Part shown: one piece after another, positions 39,923-45,804 of the stretch
Position numbering within the stretch: position 1 is the stretch's first letter
How the letters are laid out: each line of letters begins with the position of its first letter
Assembly: GCA_019637295.1 (NCBI GenBank)
Contig: JAHBVX010000003.1
Coordinates: forward strand, 1-64,000
DNA length: 64,000 nt
Source of the DNA: Polyangiaceae bacterium
GTDB lineage: Bacteria; Myxococcota_A; Polyangia; Polyangiales; Polyangiaceae
Direction: 5' to 3'
Position numbers and translations under genes: made by a program
The notes under the pieces: generated by a model
The model's input: only the letters and a program-made list of their open reading frames with translations
What the model was told of the DNA's origin: nothing
The model's database searches: none

Positions 39923-40504
39923 ATGGAACAGTTTCGAATATCTTGCGCCCCTGGGGCCGTTGGCCGACGGCTCCTGCTGGCTTTTGCGCTGCTGGTGCTC
40001 GTCTCGTGCGGGTCGCCTCCGCCCGCCCAGGGCGCTCGGACCGGCCAGCCCCCGGTCTACACTCCAGCCGAAGCCAGCCTGTTCGGCGACACCTTCTCGC
40101 CTGATTTCTTCGGCGCCGAGCGCCCCATCCCCCTGGAGCTGGACCAGAAGCTGGTACGCCGGGTCGCCGCTGCGGACGTGGTGATCGGGGCTCGGTTCTC
40201 CACCGTCAACCGTGAGCGACGGGGCGACCGCCAGCATTTCACGTTGGCGATCAGCCCGCACGGCCCCCAGCTCGCCGGCCCCGGCCGCCCCGAGATCTGG
40301 ACCCTGGAGGTGCCGCCCGAGAGCCCCTCGTACGCCTGGCTGTCCAGCGTCGGCGGTTCCCTCGTGGGAAAATACCTCATCGTGTTCCTGAAGCGCTATA
40401 ACGTCGCGGGCTCGGTCGCGGTCCACTGGCACATCGAGCCGGACACCGAACCCGTGCGCGCCGCCATCGGGCGCGCCAGACTCATCACCGAGGTCGGCAC
40501 ATGA
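39923..40504 (+). CDS. Predicted lipoprotein of unknown function
   Basis: The 193-residue protein has a 28-residue signal ending in LVLVSCGSPPP, so it is a lipoprotein. The mature part has a YTPAEASLFGDTFSPDFFG start, a charged middle, an IWTLEVPPESPSYAWLSSVG core, and a KYLIVFLKRYN strand near the end. Function is unknown. The stop overlaps the map start by 4 bp (ATGA), so it is coupled with methionine aminopeptidase. Confidence 0.65.
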   Translation: MEQFRISCAPGAVGRRLLLAFALLVLVSCGSPPPAQGARTGQPPVYTPAEASLFGDTFSPDFFGAERPIPLELDQKLVRRVAAADVVIGARFSTVNRERRGDRQHFTLAISPHGPQLAGPGRPEIWTLEVPPESPSYAWLSSVGGSLVGKYLIVFLKRYNVAGSVAVHWHIEPDTEPVRAAIGRARLITEVGT

Positions 40505-41328
40505 AGCGTGCGTTGGGCTTTCGTTCGGGAGCCATCGAGATCAAGAGCGCGAAGGAAGTGGACGCGATGCGCGAGGTGGGTCGCCTCGCCGCGGACACGC
40601 TGTGCAAGGTTGGACAGCTGATTCGTCCCGGGCTCACCACTGAAGACATCAACACCTTCGTGCATCGCGAGACGCTGCGTCTGGGTGCCACGCCCGCACC
40701 GCTCAACTACCGCGGGTTCCCCAAGAGCGTGTGTACGAGCATCAACGAGGTCGTGTGCCACGGCATCCCAGGCCCGCGGGCGCTGCAGCAGGGCGACATC
40801 ATCAACGTCGACGTCACGCATATCTACAAGGGCTACTTCGGCGACACGTCGGCCACGTTCTACGTGGGCGAGCCCAGCGACGAGGCGAAGCACGTCACCG
40901 AGGTGTCCCGCCGAAGCCTGCAGCTGGGCCTGGAGCAGGTGCGGGCCGGCGCCCGCCTGGGCGACATTGGAGCCGCGATCCAGGAGTTCGCGGAAGGTCA
41001 GGGCTGCTCCGTCGTTCGCGACTTCGTCGGCCACGGGATCGGCAGGATCTTCCATGACGAGCCGAAGGTCAGCCACGTCGGACAGTGGGGTCGGGGGGCG
41101 CGGCTCAAGGCCGGGATGACCTTCACCATCGAGCCGATGATCAACGTCGGCACCTACGAGGTGCGGATACTGGACGATGACTGGACGGCCATCACGGCGG
41201 ACGGGAAGCTGTCCGCGCAGTTCGAGCACACCGTGCTGGTGACGGAGAGCGGCTACGAGATACTGACCGCGCGCGCTGAGCCGCTGCAGAACAGCGAGCT
41301 GTTCGGCGAGTACTTCGCGGCTGGCTGA
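40501..41328 (+). CDS. map: Type I methionine aminopeptidase
   Basis: Map removes the initiator Met from nascent proteins with small second residues. The 275-residue enzyme carries all five metal ligands: two Asp in INVDVTHIYKGYFGDTSATF, His in GHGIGRIFHDEP, Glu in FTIEPMIN and Glu in QFEHTVLV. The PLNYRGFPKSVCTSINEVVC segment is the family entrance loop. It overlaps a lipoprotein gene by 4 bp. A possible terminator hairpin begins immediately after the stop. Confidence 0.95.
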   Translation: MKRALGFRSGAIEIKSAKEVDAMREVGRLAADTLCKVGQLIRPGLTTEDINTFVHRETLRLGATPAPLNYRGFPKSVCTSINEVVCHGIPGPRALQQGDIINVDVTHIYKGYFGDTSATFYVGEPSDEAKHVTEVSRRSLQLGLEQVRAGARLGDIGAAIQEFAEGQGCSVVRDFVGHGIGRIFHDEPKVSHVGQWGRGARLKAGMTFTIEPMINVGTYEVRILDDDWTAITADGKLSAQFEHTVLVTESGYEILTARAEPLQNSELFGEYFAAG

Positions 41329-41387
41329 GCGGCCAGCCGCCCGGGATCGGGGCTACGCCCAGCCGGCGGGGCCCCCTCACTGGCCGC
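41329..41387 (+). terminator. Candidate stem-loop after map
   Basis: GCGGCCAG (41329-41336) pairs perfectly with CTGGCCGC (41380-41387), with an inner CCGCC/GGCGG pairing. It begins right at the map stop and ends where a promoter-like TTGACG starts. The loop is long and no U-tract follows, so this is a weak terminator prediction. Confidence 0.3.
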
Positions 41388-41416
41388 TTGACGAAATCGC
41401 TACCGGGCGACTAGTT
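41388..41416 (+). promoter_or_regulatory. Candidate sigma70-type promoter for the Fic-like gene
   Basis: TTGACG (41388-41393) and CTAGTT (41411-41416) are separated by 17 bases, about 70 bases before the predicted ATG 41485. The -35 fits well; the -10 is a partial match. It separates map from the Fic-like gene. Confidence 0.4.
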
Positions 41417-41484
41417 TCCTGGAGCCTTGGGTCCGGGTCGGCCGTCCGCCGCTCGGACGCGAATCCTTGCACGTTCGACGGCAA

Positions 41485-43212
41485 ATGACGCCGATGTCGG
41501 CCCGCACCCCGAAGAAATCCCCTCGAAAGGCCGCTCCGTCCCGCCCCAAAGCCGGAGGGAAGGGCAATACTTCGCGAAAAGTGAGCAAGAAGGCGACGGC
41601 TCGACCGGCGCGGCGCCCGGCCAAGCGCAAGCCCGTGGCTTCCCGCCCCGCCGCCAAGCCCCGCAAGAGCTCGCCGAAGGCGAAGTCGAGGAAGCCGCCG
41701 GCTCGACCGGCCCGGAGCAAGGTCGCCCCCAAGAAGGCCCCGCCCAACAAGGCGCGACTGGCGCGAGCGCGCGAGCAGGCGCAAAAGGCGCGAGAGCGCG
41801 AGCGCCTCGCGAAGGAGCGCGAGCGCGAGCGGGCCCGACAGGCGCGCGAGAAGGAAGCCGACAAGCTCGCCAAGCTGCGCGCGAAGGAGAAGCTCGCCAA
41901 GGAGCGGGAACGACAGAAGCTGGCGAAGGAGCGCGAGCGGGAGCGGCAGCTGCGCGCCAAGGAGAAAGCGCGCCTCGAGAAGGAGCGCCAGAAGGCCCGG
42001 GACGCGGAGAAGCGCCGACGGGAGGCCGAGCGCGAGCGGGAGCGACTCGAACGGGAGGCCGAGCGCGAGCGCGTGCGCGAAGAGGCCCGTCGGGCAAAAG
42101 AAGAAGAGCGCGCGCAGCGTGAAGCCGCGCGTGAGGCGTATCGGCTAGCCAAGGAGGCCGAGCGCGAGCGACTACGACGAGATCGCGAGGCCGCCAAGCG
42201 TGCGCTCGAGGGCAAGGTGGCACGCTTGACGAAGCGGGCCCAGCGCGCCGCCGGCGTGGGACGCTCCAGCACCACGCGGGTCTATCGCCCGGACGCCATC
42301 CCGAACCAGAGCGGTACGTCCCTGCGCCGGTCCTCCGACGACAGTCGCTTCGCCAACCTGCGCGCCCCCGCGACGGTTACGCCCGAGGTGCTGCTGGAGC
42401 CCCCCCCGGAGCCGCCCGCGCCCGCGCCGCCGCCCCCGCCCCCGCCGCCGGATCGGGTGGAGGAGCGCTACGCGCTGATCCAGACTCGGCTCGCCGACTG
42501 CGGGGAGGAGTTCCGCCGCGAGTACAGCGAGAGCTTCGACATGTCGTGGATCTATCACGACAGTGCGCTCGAGGGCGTGGTCTACACCTACCAAGAGCTC
42601 AAGACCGCCATCGACCCCAGAGTGACCGTCGTGCCCGACTCGAGCATGCAGCCCGTGTGCGAGGAGATCCGCCGGCACAAGTCCGCGCTCGACCTGGTAC
42701 GGGACCTCGGAGAGAAGAAGCGTTCGCCCATCACGGTAGACGTGATCAAGAAGATCTACCTGGTGCTTCACCCGGAGGAGGGGGACCTCAAGAGCGTGAA
42801 GTATCGTAAGGACATCCCTCAGCATCGTCTGTATTTCCACGAGTACGCGCCCCCGGACAAGATCGCCTATCGCGTGCGCCAGGTCGTGGATTGGCTCAAC
42901 GGCCCCGAGCCCAAGAAGATCAAGGACCCCATCCGAGTCGCCGCGCGCGTGCAGTACGATCTGGTTCGCGTCTTTCCGTTCGCGCAAGACAGCGGCAAGG
43001 TGGCGCGCTTGCTCATGAACATACTCTTGCTGCGCGCCGGACACCCGCCCGCCATCATGCACTCGACGGAGCGGCAGCGTTACTACGAGGCGCTCAAGGG
43101 CTCACTGCCGGTGATCATCGCCATGGTCCGTGAGGCGATCAACAACGGCCTCACGAGCATCGAGAAGCGACTCGACGACCGAGACGCCAAGCTGCGCGGT
43201 TTCGCGGGCTGA
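41485..43212 (+). CDS. Basic coiled-coil protein with a degenerate C-terminal Fic domain
   Basis: The 575-residue protein has three parts. Residues 1-90 are very Lys/Ala/Pro/Arg-rich. Residues about 90-255 are an almost uninterrupted E/R/K/A coiled-coil or charged helix. After a Pro-rich linker (about 305-323) comes a Fic-like domain (about 351-549). It keeps the Fic layout: an inhibitory-helix-like DSALEG (coding 42559-42576), HRLYFHEYAPPDKIAYRV, VDWLNG, and the core followed by LLMNILLLRAGHPPAI. The core HPFx(D/E)GNGRxxR is FPFAQDSGKVAR (residues 497-508): the catalytic His is Phe and Asp/Glu, Asn and the first Arg are replaced. AMPylation is unlikely. ATG 41494 is an alternative start. Confidence 0.8.
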   Translation: MTPMSARTPKKSPRKAAPSRPKAGGKGNTSRKVSKKATARPARRPAKRKPVASRPAAKPRKSSPKAKSRKPPARPARSKVAPKKAPPNKARLARAREQAQKARERERLAKERERERARQAREKEADKLAKLRAKEKLAKERERQKLAKERERERQLRAKEKARLEKERQKARDAEKRRREAERERERLEREAERERVREEARRAKEEERAQREAAREAYRLAKEAERERLRRDREAAKRALEGKVARLTKRAQRAAGVGRSSTTRVYRPDAIPNQSGTSLRRSSDDSRFANLRAPATVTPEVLLEPPPEPPAPAPPPPPPPPDRVEERYALIQTRLADCGEEFRREYSESFDMSWIYHDSALEGVVYTYQELKTAIDPRVTVVPDSSMQPVCEEIRRHKSALDLVRDLGEKKRSPITVDVIKKIYLVLHPEEGDLKSVKYRKDIPQHRLYFHEYAPPDKIAYRVRQVVDWLNGPEPKKIKDPIRVAARVQYDLVRVFPFAQDSGKVARLLMNILLLRAGHPPAIMHSTERQRYYEALKGSLPVIIAMVREAINNGLTSIEKRLDDRDAKLRGFAG

Positions 43213-43225
43213 GCTTGGCCCGCGC

Positions 43226-44611
43226 TCAGCGCGCGGTCTCGCGACGGCGCGGGGCGCCGATCGCGTCCCAGCCGGTGGCCAACCCGAGCCTCGCGACCGC
43301 GACGTTGTAGTCGAACACCGCGGACATGTAGCCGAAGCGCTTGAGCGCGTACTCCTTGGCGGGGTCGGCGATGTCGTCGTCATCGAAGGTCCCCACGTCG
43401 ATGCCTTGCTGCACCTTGATCAGCCACTGCTTGGCCAACTTGAGCGCGCGGCGCGCCGTCTCCAGCCGTTTGGCAGCGGACGTCGCCTCGGCGAACGCCT
43501 CCTCCACCTCGACCGCCACGCCGCCGAGGGCGAACCGCTCGGTGGCGCGCATCTCCTCCAGCTGCGCCTCCGCTTGCGCGACGCGCGCCGTCTGCGGCAA
43601 GAAGTCGAGCTTCCATCGCAACACGAGCGCAGCGCCGTAGTGGAAGTAGTTGGCGCGATCGTAGACGTACGGATTGGTCTGATCGGTGACCTCGGGCGCG
43701 CGCGCCCAGCGCGCGTGCGCGCCGACGCCGAGATCCGGGTAGTAGCGGGAGCGCTCGAGCGCGACCTGTGCCCGGCGCGCGCTGACGCCGGCGCGAGCCA
43801 TGTTCACTTCCGGGCGAAAGAGCCGCGCCGCGTCCAAATAGCGAGGCAGTGGGCCGAGGGTGTGGGGGTGGCGCTCGAGCGGGCGATCCGGCACGTCCAT
43901 GGCGCCGCGGACGCCGGTGAGGAAACGCAGGCCAGACAGCGCGATCGTCTCCTGCTTCTTGGCTTCACTCTCGCGCCCCTCGAGATCCGCCCGGTGGAGC
44001 TTGAGCTTGATCAGCTCGATGTCGTCACCGTCACCGTCCTCGATCTTGTCCTCCATGCGGCCGATGTACTTGTCCATGCGCCGGGTGGCATCGTCGATGA
44101 GCAGCAGCGCGTCACGGGCCAGTTGCACCCCGTAGAAGGCGCGATGGACGGCCAAGCGAACCTGGTTCTTCTCCTTCTTGACCTCGTGCTCGCCAACCGA
44201 CACTTGCGCCTCGGCCGCGCTCCACAGGTTGGTGATCTTGCCGAAGGTCCAGAGCGGCAAGGCGCCCTCGATGCCCAGCTGCCAGGCCAGCGCCATGTTG
44301 CTCGTGAGCGAGGCGTCCGTGTTCGGGCTGTACACGTTCGTGCCCCGGATGGTGGGCGCGGGGCCGAGCCCACCGCTCAGGGAGAACTCACTGTACGGCT
44401 GAGTCTTGGCCTGACGCAGCTGGGCCCGCTTGTGATCGAGACGCGCCATGGCCTCGTGGACCTTGGGGTAGTTCCGCTCTGCCAGCAGCAGGCAGCGCTC
44501 CAGCTCGTAGACCGGCCCGCGGCCGCCGCCCGACCGCGTGTCCGCCGCCGCGGACGCGGCCAGCGTCAAGCTGAGGGCGCAGCCGGATGCGCAGAGCGCC
44601 GATCGCATCAT
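43226..44611 (-). CDS. TolC family outer-membrane channel protein
   Basis: The 461-residue protein has a signal peptide (residues 1-22) and the two-repeat, long-helix pattern of TolC-family outer membrane factors. The first part carries LLLAERNYPKVHEAMARLDH and LAVHRAFYGVQLARDALLLI. The second has ARAGVSARRAQVALERSRYY then PDLGVGAHARWARAP and EVEEAFAEATSAAKRLETAR. It probably forms the exit duct of an efflux pump or type I secretion system. No inner-membrane pump genes are adjacent. Two ATG codons in a row (44611 and 44608) start the reading frame. It lies 77 bp downstream of a diguanylate cyclase gene and converges with the Fic-like gene. Confidence 0.82.
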   Translation of the reverse strand: MMRSALCASGCALSLTLAASAAADTRSGGGRGPVYELERCLLLAERNYPKVHEAMARLDHKRAQLRQAKTQPYSEFSLSGGLGPAPTIRGTNVYSPNTDASLTSNMALAWQLGIEGALPLWTFGKITNLWSAAEAQVSVGEHEVKKEKNQVRLAVHRAFYGVQLARDALLLIDDATRRMDKYIGRMEDKIEDGDGDDIELIKLKLHRADLEGRESEAKKQETIALSGLRFLTGVRGAMDVPDRPLERHPHTLGPLPRYLDAARLFRPEVNMARAGVSARRAQVALERSRYYPDLGVGAHARWARAPEVTDQTNPYVYDRANYFHYGAALVLRWKLDFLPQTARVAQAEAQLEEMRATERFALGGVAVEVEEAFAEATSAAKRLETARRALKLAKQWLIKVQQGIDVGTFDDDDIADPAKEYALKRFGYMSAVFDYNVAVARLGLATGWDAIGAPRRRETAR

Positions 44612-44688
44612 CGTGGCCAGCGTACTGCCCGATCCCGGAAGTCTCAATCGGGATTCGGCCCGAGCGGCGCCGGCACCGCGCCGCAGCG

Positions 44689-45804
44689 TCACTCCGGTTT
44701 GCGACGGCTCGCCGGCGGGTGGTCCGAGCGAGGGCGCTTGGGCGGTCGGCTCGACAAGGGGCGCGGACGGTCGCGCTCTGCCACGGGCTCTCCCACCACG
44801 GGGGTGTACAGGTAGCCATGCTGCTGAAACACGCAGATGCGACTGCCACCGTCACGCTTGGCCTGGTGCAGCGCTGCGTCCGCGGCGCGCAGGAGCGCGT
44901 CCTTGGTGCGGACGTCCCGCGACGGGTACAGCGCTACGCCCATCGACAGGGTCATGCGAAAGGGTCGCGCCCCTTCGCCGAAGAAGGTCTTGTCGGTCAC
45001 CTCTCTCCAGATCCGTTCGGCCACGGTGACCGAGCCGGCGAAGTGGGTGCTGGGCAGCACGACGAGGAACTCGTCTCCGCCGAAGCGAGCGACCACATCC
45101 ACCTCGCGTACGCTGCGTTTGATCGTCTCCGACACGCCCTGGATCACCTCATCGCCGCTGGCGCGACCGTCCGAGTCGTTGAGGCCTTGCAGGCGGTCGA
45201 TGTCGATCACGACGCAGGCGAGCGGATCGTGATAGCGCTCGGCCCGCTTGAACTCCTCGGCCAGGCGTGAGTGCAGGTAGCGATAATTGTACAGCCCCGT
45301 CAGCTCGTCGTGAACGCTGAGTTGCTCGAGCTTGGCGCGGGCGGTGACCACATGATCGTGCAGCTTCTTGATGCGCAGCATGGCCTCGACGCGCGCGATG
45401 AGCTCGCGCTCGTCATAGGGCTTGCACACGTAGTCGTCCGCGCCGAGACGGAGCCCCTCGACCCGGCTGGCGGTGTCGGTCTTCACGGTCACGAGCACGA
45501 CCGGGAGGAACGTGTCCGCTGTCATGCTCTTGAGCAGACGGCAGGCCTCGAGGCCCGTCAGACGAGGCATCAAGATGTCGAGCAGCACGAGGTCGACCCC
45601 GCCCCGCCCCACGCGCTCCACCGCCGCCTGTCCGTCGTCCACCGCCTCGACGCGAAAGCCGTGACTACGCAGCATGTTGACCAACAGTTCCCGCGTGAGC
45701 CGCTCGTCATCTGCGACCACGATGGTCGAGCCGATCACCGAGCGGGTCACGCCGCTGGCCGACAGAGGAGGCTCGCTCGGGCGCGGCGGCTCGCTGGTCG
45801 TCAT
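44689..45804 (-). CDS. Response regulator diguanylate cyclase (REC-GGDEF)
   Basis: The 371-residue protein has a receiver domain (about 26-145) with VVADDE, phospho-acceptor Asp76 in LVLLDILMPRL, and KPYD. A GGDEF domain follows (about 160-330), with an intact RFGGDEF (242-246) and a product-inhibition I-site RxxD at 233-236, five residues before GGDEF. It should make c-di-GMP upon phosphorylation. The N-terminal Pro/Ser tail and C-terminal Arg/Pro-rich tail are low complexity. No histidine kinase is adjacent. It is upstream of tolC on the same strand. Confidence 0.93.
   Translation of the reverse strand: MTTSEPPRPSEPPLSASGVTRSVIGSTIVVADDERLTRELLVNMLRSHGFRVEAVDDGQAAVERVGRGGVDLVLLDILMPRLTGLEACRLLKSMTADTFLPVVLVTVKTDTASRVEGLRLGADDYVCKPYDERELIARVEAMLRIKKLHDHVVTARAKLEQLSVHDELTGLYNYRYLHSRLAEEFKRAERYHDPLACVVIDIDRLQGLNDSDGRASGDEVIQGVSETIKRSVREVDVVARFGGDEFLVVLPSTHFAGSVTVAERIWREVTDKTFFGEGARPFRMTLSMGVALYPSRDVRTKDALLRAADAALHQAKRDGGSRICVFQQHGYLYTPVVGEPVAERDRPRPLSSRPPKRPRSDHPPASRRKPE

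Follow-up and report, generated by a model that had tools for sequence, protein, structure and literature searches.

One gene in the 64,000-nucleotide stretch of Polyangiaceae DNA analysed here (the window) encodes a protein whose C-terminal domain has a Fic fold without the catalytic histidine, and the fold is kept in this His-less form through nearly the whole class, which suggests that it has a second job. We consider this pseudo-Fic protein to be probably (at a probability of roughly 0.6) a non-catalytic binding or regulatory module, judging from sequence comparisons and structural models. Most descriptions of Fic proteins treat them as enzymes or toxins, and many belong to toxin-antitoxin modules or are secreted effectors. 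Neither the class-wide conservation nor the GTP cyclohydrolase II neighbour found in other families is visible from the window sequence alone.

The open frame is a real gene, and its parts and neighbours are listed in Table 1. A second ATG at 41494 gives a protein of 572 residues. The closest homologues (L002 and L003) begin with MAARTKKK and MPARTKKK, and therefore this start fits better than 41485 and is, from the sequence, more likely the true one. A promoter scan of 41200-43400 found none, and terminator-like sites in it were at chance level.

Table 1. The pseudo-Fic gene of the window, its parts and the genes around it.
Feature	Coordinates	Strand	Description and basis
Type I methionine aminopeptidase	40501-41328	+	Neighbour of the pseudo-Fic gene
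Pseudo-Fic gene	41485-43212	+	Open frame to the stop at 43212; 575 aa
Basic Lys/Arg/Ala/Pro head	41485-41745	+	Residues 1-87; composition; residues 1-86 unstructured in the single-sequence model
ER/K-rich helix	41743-42249	+	Residues 87-255; predicted uninterrupted helix of 169 residues; composition
Pro-rich linker	42250-42456	+	Residues 256-324; sequence; Pro 27% in residues 259-324
Pseudo-Fic domain	42457-43209	+	Residues 325-575, domain numbering 1-251; Pfam Fic, AF2 model, FICD match
Inhibitory-helix motif DSALEG (D35 to G40)	42559-42576	+	FICD alignment; site counts
Flap HRLYFH (H123 to H128)	42823-42840	+	Site counts in class rows
Degenerate FIC motif FPFAQDSGKVAR (F173 to R184)	42973-43008	+	FICD alignment; site counts
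Outer membrane efflux (TolC-type) protein	43226-44692	-	Neighbour of the pseudo-Fic gene
Response regulator-GGDEF protein	44689-45804	-	Neighbour of the pseudo-Fic gene

The C-terminal 251 residues match the Pfam Fic profile (PF02661) at 39.1 bits against a curated cut-off of 24 (E 1.3e-9), and phmmer aligns the domain with a FICD chain at E 2.3e-19. The AF2 model of the domain, built from the window sequence and 53 homologues, has a mean pLDDT of 92.3 and a pTM of 0.90. When this model was compared with the PDB, the top solved structures were Fic proteins, with human FICD at Z 25.7 (rmsd 2.6, 238 residues aligned); an AvrB chain matched at Z 11.8 with 10% identity. Since the profile match, the FICD match and the predicted fold agree, the Fic homology is not by chance. 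The Fic framework that the sequence-only reading had recognised in this domain is thus borne out by a profile match above the cut-off and by structure searches, and the unrelated fold that it had allowed for did not appear, Fic structures being the first matches.

In the phmmer alignment, FPFAQDSGKVAR of the window lies on HPFIDGNGRTSR of FICD, with Phe on the catalytic His, Gln on the metal Asp, Asp on Gly, Ser on Asn and Lys in place of the first Arg, while the second Gly and the second Arg are retained. The window sequence FPFAQDSGKVAR departs from the active-enzyme motif HxFx(D/E)GNGRxxR, and the changes listed before the alignment was made (Asp/Glu to Gln, Gly-Asn to Asp-Ser, first Arg to Lys) are all found in it. 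Glu39 of the domain is the equivalent of FICD Glu234 and adjoins the end of a helix that spans domain residues 17-38 in the AF2 model. The inhibitory motif of the window reads D-x-x-x-E-G, with Asp where (S/T)xxxE(G/N) has Ser or Thr; of the features of class II Fic proteins, the Glu and Gly at the N-terminal helix are present, but not the Ser/Thr. The earlier identification of DSALEG as the inhibitory helix is therefore sound as to the Glu, the Gly and the N-terminal helix, but not as to the Ser/Thr position.

Residues were counted in 96 rows, one per genome, comprising 53 from the window's order, 22 from other orders of the class and 21 from other classes, after leaving out L054 (a fragment), L220-L222 (split or duplicate matches) and L212-L218 (canonical Fic). 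At the position of the catalytic His there are 55 Phe, 33 Tyr, 6 Trp, 1 His and 1 Ser, that is, an aromatic Phe, Tyr or Trp in 94 of the 96 rows and no His in 95. The second Arg of the motif (Arg184) is present in all 96 rows, as is the Gly that follows the inhibitory Glu39, the latter being Glu in 94 rows and Asp in 2; the Ser/Thr position of the inhibitory motif holds Asp or Glu throughout (96/96). Gly180 is kept in 94 rows and the motif Asn in 2, the position of the first Arg (181) holds Lys in 60 rows and Arg in 12, and an acidic residue at the metal position is kept in at least 14 of the 96. In the class, the flap residues H123, R124, Y126 and H128 are found in 75 of 75 rows, Ser179 in 68 and Lys/Arg181 in 71. 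The flap residues are not retained as a set in the 21 rows from outside the class, where His123 occurs in 6, His128 in 6, Tyr126 in 20 and Lys/Arg181 in 1. The family-wide constants are the fold, the inhibitory Glu and the second Arg, to which the class adds its own strict flap. Around the motif, the family follows the pattern aromatic residue, Pro, aromatic residue and then the kept second Arg. It had been proposed that FPFxxDSGKxAR might be conserved across species; the exact string is found only near the window, and what is conserved is the degenerate core without His.

The named set L055-L134 was counted separately because its genomes overlap those of the 96 rows; it has 63 Phe and 17 Tyr at the His position in the 80 rows with letters, and 3 further rows are gapped there. 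Another 12 rows from outside the class (L253-L258 and L260-L265) all have Phe or Tyr, and in L259 the motif was not found by pattern search. Only one of the counted orthologues, L043 (G054), has the catalytic His; it reads HPFARHSGKLAR, nests among Tyr rows in the tree and is still without the Asp/Glu, the Asn and the first Arg, and its His is probably a late change. Some pseudo-Fic domains of family f6 (L221, G206:C91; and G184:C44) matched in two pieces, with extra residues between approximately positions 107 and 111.

The family is widespread. In a 59-genome sample that includes the window's own genome, 53 genomes carry a full or nearly full-length orthologue, 1 a fragment and 3 weak matches only, and 2 carry none. 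In the class sample, 185 of 192 genomes carry an orthologue, the best E being below 4e-25 in every case. At 1e-10, 165 of the 185 show one match and 20 show a second one as well, the second matches being, among those inspected, canonical Fic proteins, fragments or split frames. The phylum sample has matches at 1e-10 in 112 of 282 genomes, namely 58 from the class, 45 with a pseudo-Fic gene outside it and 9 weak ones, of which the 3 inspected (L212-L214) are all canonical Fic. The members outside the class are diverged, and the 45 genomes belong to six families (f38, 18; f48, 13; f46, 6; f66, 4; f59, 3; f57, 1), with the motif read in 21 of the 45 and then in 12 more, and the others counted from their family and score. 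A contig scan gave 206 relatives; the best 80 of these are in records titled Myxococcales, Polyangiaceae, Sorangium, Deltaproteobacteria and similar, and those named among the 80 are Polyangiaceae (such as Sorangium, Polyangium, Minicystis and Labilithrix) and uncultured Myxococcales. The window's genome has one pseudo-Fic copy and two other Fic-domain matches, both on other contigs; L226 is canonical (HPYLDGNGRIGR), and in L225 no motif was found by pattern search.

We placed the 96 pseudo-Fic rows in a tree with 19 other Fic rows from the same phylum (18 with His and L236 with Leu). All 96 lie on one side of a single branch (support 94/71; 92% of 200 bootstrap trees). The tree broadly follows kinship, with imperfect clustering of labels (5 changes against a minimum of 3), some weak deep forks and several rows on long branches. 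NG86 dN/dS is about 0.05 to 0.25 in 11 pairs, some with dS near saturation; one pair duplicates another, since L056 and G210 seem to represent a single genome. Descent is largely vertical and selection is purifying. Class-wide orthologues, His-less rows, vertical descent and purifying selection together argue, on these sequence data, that this is an old pseudo-Fic family rather than decay or one mutated copy, and the idea of a pseudo-Fic subfamily holds, the His-less fold being conserved as such across species. L236 (G028:C3:54349-55940) has Leu for the catalytic His with the rest of the motif kept (LPFNDGNGRIAR), and falls outside the pseudo-Fic family.

The loss of the His, first read as Phe in the window, is shared by 95 of the 96 counted orthologues, so that homologues with the canonical His, which might have marked the window copy as a mutated enzyme, are missing apart from L043; a mutated single enzyme copy is ruled out. 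Survival by chance of a decaying Fic toxin or mobile gene, to which the degenerate motif alone could point, is extremely unlikely given the class-wide presence, the descent along kinship and the purifying selection. In addition, one pattern-based scan of viral contigs found no relative, and all 161 plasmid records with a match are below 60% identity, the ten listed being at 25 to 30%. A toxin-antitoxin or mobile origin was likewise rejected from the distribution, the phylogeny and the viral and plasmid scans.

The missing His and phosphate-binding residues support the earlier view that AMPylation or other NMP transfer by this protein is unlikely, and the sequence suggests that nucleotide transfer has been lost. 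Residual nucleotide binding through Gly180, Lys181 and Arg184, whether in a weak enzyme of NMP transfer or de-modification or in an NTP sensor, would be consistent with the retention of Gly180 (94/96), Arg184 (96/96), Lys/Arg181 (72/96) and the inhibitory Glu (94/96). We regard it as quite unlikely, since the catalytic His is missing in 95 and the motif Asn in 94 of the 96 rows, and FICD is reported to use Asn369, Arg371 and Asp367 with magnesium to hold a diphosphate (PMC12974487).

Loss of the His and of the phosphate loop, with Glu and Arg strictly kept, fits a domain that holds the inhibited shape and is used for binding. In the non-catalytic module that we favour, the FICD-type fold and the inhibitory helix are kept without the catalytic His and several phosphate-binding residues, and the retained Glu39 and second Arg would keep the helix docked. 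A helix held docked in this way would make the domain a stable binding module, which may bind a protein or a small ligand as a regulator or scaffold. An acidic residue at the metal position, still there in at least 14 of the 96 rows, speaks against this reading. The strict flap of the class and Lys/Arg181 would be superfluous for a plain scaffold, and thus hint at a ligand site or at new chemistry. The latter would make the protein a re-purposed Fido enzyme that works without His through class-specific flap and loop residues, as AvrB does, a glycosyltransferase with a divergent motif (PMC10866546) whose fold is matched at Z 11.8. The 75/75 conservation of H123, R124, Y126 and H128, together with Ser179 (68/75) and Lys/Arg181 (71/75), is in its favour. 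But the same set is not kept outside the class (His123 and His128 in 6/21 each, Lys/Arg181 in 1/21), so that new chemistry could not be family-wide, and overall we find this alternative unlikely.

The N-terminal arm is a younger part of the protein. The head (residues 1-87) contains 36% Lys and Arg, 20% Pro and 18% Ala and no Asp or Glu, with a net charge of +31. In composition it would suit a Lys/Ala/Pro-rich, disordered basic stretch that binds DNA, as in histone H1-like tails. Its first description as Lys/Ala-rich was correct as to Lys, Ala and basic character, but a disordered Lys/Arg/Ala/Pro head free of acidic residues is more accurate. Residues 88-258 contain 39% Lys and Arg, 24% Asp and Glu, no Pro and 16 LIVMF residues in 171. 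The full-length single-sequence model has a mean pLDDT of 57 overall and contains one helix (87-255) at about 90 over most of its length. This stretch has the features of an ER/K single alpha-helix, being a long uninterrupted predicted helix, rich in Glu, Arg and Lys, with few aliphatics. The arm was at first called a coiled coil, a description that does not suit a predicted single helix of 169 residues without Pro and so poor in LIVMF; from the model, it is better read as a disordered head followed by a single ER/K helix.

Within the window's family (f1), some members have arms of 170-500 residues and others have tails of 23 to 123 residues that are mostly basic, that of L038 not being so. 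Beyond f1, the families examined showed no such basic arm, and in them the gene begins at or near the pseudo-Fic domain. The arm is restricted to part of f1 and is therefore a late addition, the domain being the old part. The sequences of the window protein and of L002, L003, L005, L007 and L009 show a Glu-rich helix, and the Glu content of L004, L006 and L008 suggests the same; the single ER/K helix of 169 residues is predicted to be a feature of the window's subclade. Composition points, less firmly, to a nucleic-acid-binding role for the arm. In the window lineage, the basic head may bind a polyanion such as DNA or RNA, and the domain might be spaced from it by the ER/K helix, which at 0.15 nm per residue would be about 25 nm long; both steps are weaker than the docking proposed above.

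Methionine aminopeptidase lies upstream on the same strand in 33 of the 62 loci with at least 4.5 kb upstream (the window included), within approximately 0.6 kb of the Fic frame in 18 of the 33. At 33/62 loci it was rejected as a meaningful partner and represents local synteny only. Elsewhere the neighbours include a divergent mraW methylase with a penicillin-binding transpeptidase, argininosuccinate lyase-type and PLP decarboxylase genes downstream, and a histidine kinase upstream. In L171, L173, L179 and L184-L189, all of other orders, the pseudo-Fic gene is divergent from mraW, with the transpeptidase beyond in most; this mraW-side position resembles the edge of a division cluster.

The recurring neighbour in five other families is a standalone GTP cyclohydrolase II on the same strand; the one in L194 matches PF00925 at 3e-64 and NCBIfam RibA above the cut-off. 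By locus, it lies beside the pseudo-Fic gene at 14 of the 21 loci from outside the class (f38, f46 and f66) and, among the 22 loci from other class orders, at 4 (L182 of f31; L186, L187 and L189 of f18). It was not found in the window's order with flanks of 0.3 to 8 kb (0/23 in L031-L053, 0/80 in L055-L134), nor by locus in f48 (0/13), f59 (0/3) or f57 (0/1). In the phylum sample it lies within 0.5 kb in 15 of 18 f38, 6 of 6 f46, 4 of 4 f66 and 5 of 6 f18 genomes, a distance that may include small genes lying between the two; the remaining f18 genome, G102, has no cyclohydrolase II match at 1e-70 and none in its locus L188. This gives linkage in 25 of the 45 pseudo-Fic genomes outside the class. 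Of the 34 typed genomes of four families, 30 are linked within 0.5 kb; in these the cyclohydrolase II gene is downstream in 29 and upstream in 1 (f66), and in L182, of the fifth family, it is downstream. The table of positions does not include f48 (13), f59 (3), G102 of f18 or the remaining genomes of the class. The loci of f48, f59 and the three unlinked f38 genomes were inspected directly, that of G431 with 0.8 kb of downstream sequence only.

At 1e-70, cyclohydrolase II is present in 235 of the 282 phylum-sample genomes, many of them without a pseudo-Fic gene. All 15 genomes tested have at least two matches, one of them in a longer frame that is probably bifunctional. The window's own genome has one standalone and one in a longer frame (G000:C12:398104-398700 and G000:C24:318452-318901), on contigs other than that of the pseudo-Fic gene.

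There is close to an even chance that the pairing is a gene-order fossil without functional meaning. The pair was not seen in the window's order, at 18 of the 22 loci of other class orders or in f48, f59 and f57, and cyclohydrolase II is commoner than pseudo-Fic (235/282 at 1e-70 vs 112/282). On the other hand, the two genes lie on the same strand within 0.5 kb in 30 of 34 typed genomes of four families and are paired in L182 of a fifth, and the other genes around the linked pair differ between families. For the binding module, the standalone cyclohydrolase II, recurring in distant families, is the first candidate partner, and the weakest step that we propose is that the partner may be linked to it. 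It is rather improbable, as a whole, that the pseudo-Fic protein is a class-wide, non-catalytic core regulator that originally worked for a dedicated second GTP cyclohydrolase II, continues to do so in several families, and was later tethered to the nucleoid in one lineage by the basic head and the 25 nm ER/K helix.

Several other leads on the neighbourhood were rejected. A search for a flavin riboswitch before the cyclohydrolase gene gave nothing at Rfam gathering scores in 25 sources, and a riboswitch was dropped as the reason for the gene order. A pterin or folate theme from the divergent folK in f46 (L208) is weak, and the adjacent class IV aminotransferase of L193 (f48), considered as PabC, is a branched-chain transaminase (IlvE). 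A link of fic with pabA and folate is familiar from E. coli, and the work listed in a literature search on it is unrelated.

Among the matches listed in a search of titles and abstract starts of the open-licence literature, none reports a Fic family of Myxococcota without the His, or a connection between Fic and cyclohydrolase II. Fic/Doc clades without crucial motif residues have been noted as possibly inactive (PMC4454073). They share degenerate motifs with the pseudo-Fic family, but the passages on these clades describe no His-less class-wide family, and the words myxo and Sorangium are absent from the main text of that study.

Human FICD/HYPE and bacterial class II Fic proteins share with the window protein the fold, the N-terminal inhibitory helix with its Glu and the second Arg, whereas the window protein has neither the catalytic His nor the GNGR loop and has Asp for Ser/Thr. 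FICD, as described, has TPR repeats, in place of which the window protein has the basic arm. The inhibitory Glu234 of FICD forms a salt bridge with Arg374, for which it competes with the gamma-phosphate of ATP, and Asn369, Arg371 and Asp367 with magnesium hold a diphosphate (PMC12974487); the inhibitory principle is reported to be common to the three Fic classes (PMC3667792). The family raises a testable question, namely what purpose a lock between inhibitory helix and Arg serves when there is no catalysis to inhibit. Bartonella BepC is reported to act without FIC catalysis, by binding (PMC7842960), which is what we propose likewise for the pseudo-Fic domain. BepC, however, is described as keeping the His and GNGR with one changed motif residue, and is a secreted effector rather than a core gene as here. 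Pseudomonas AvrB resembles the pseudo-Fic domain in its Fido fold (Z 11.8) and in missing the conserved motif (PMC4454073), with little sequence likeness (10% identity). It transfers rhamnose (PMC10866546), and so serves as a warning that a Fido protein may lack the motif and yet be an enzyme.
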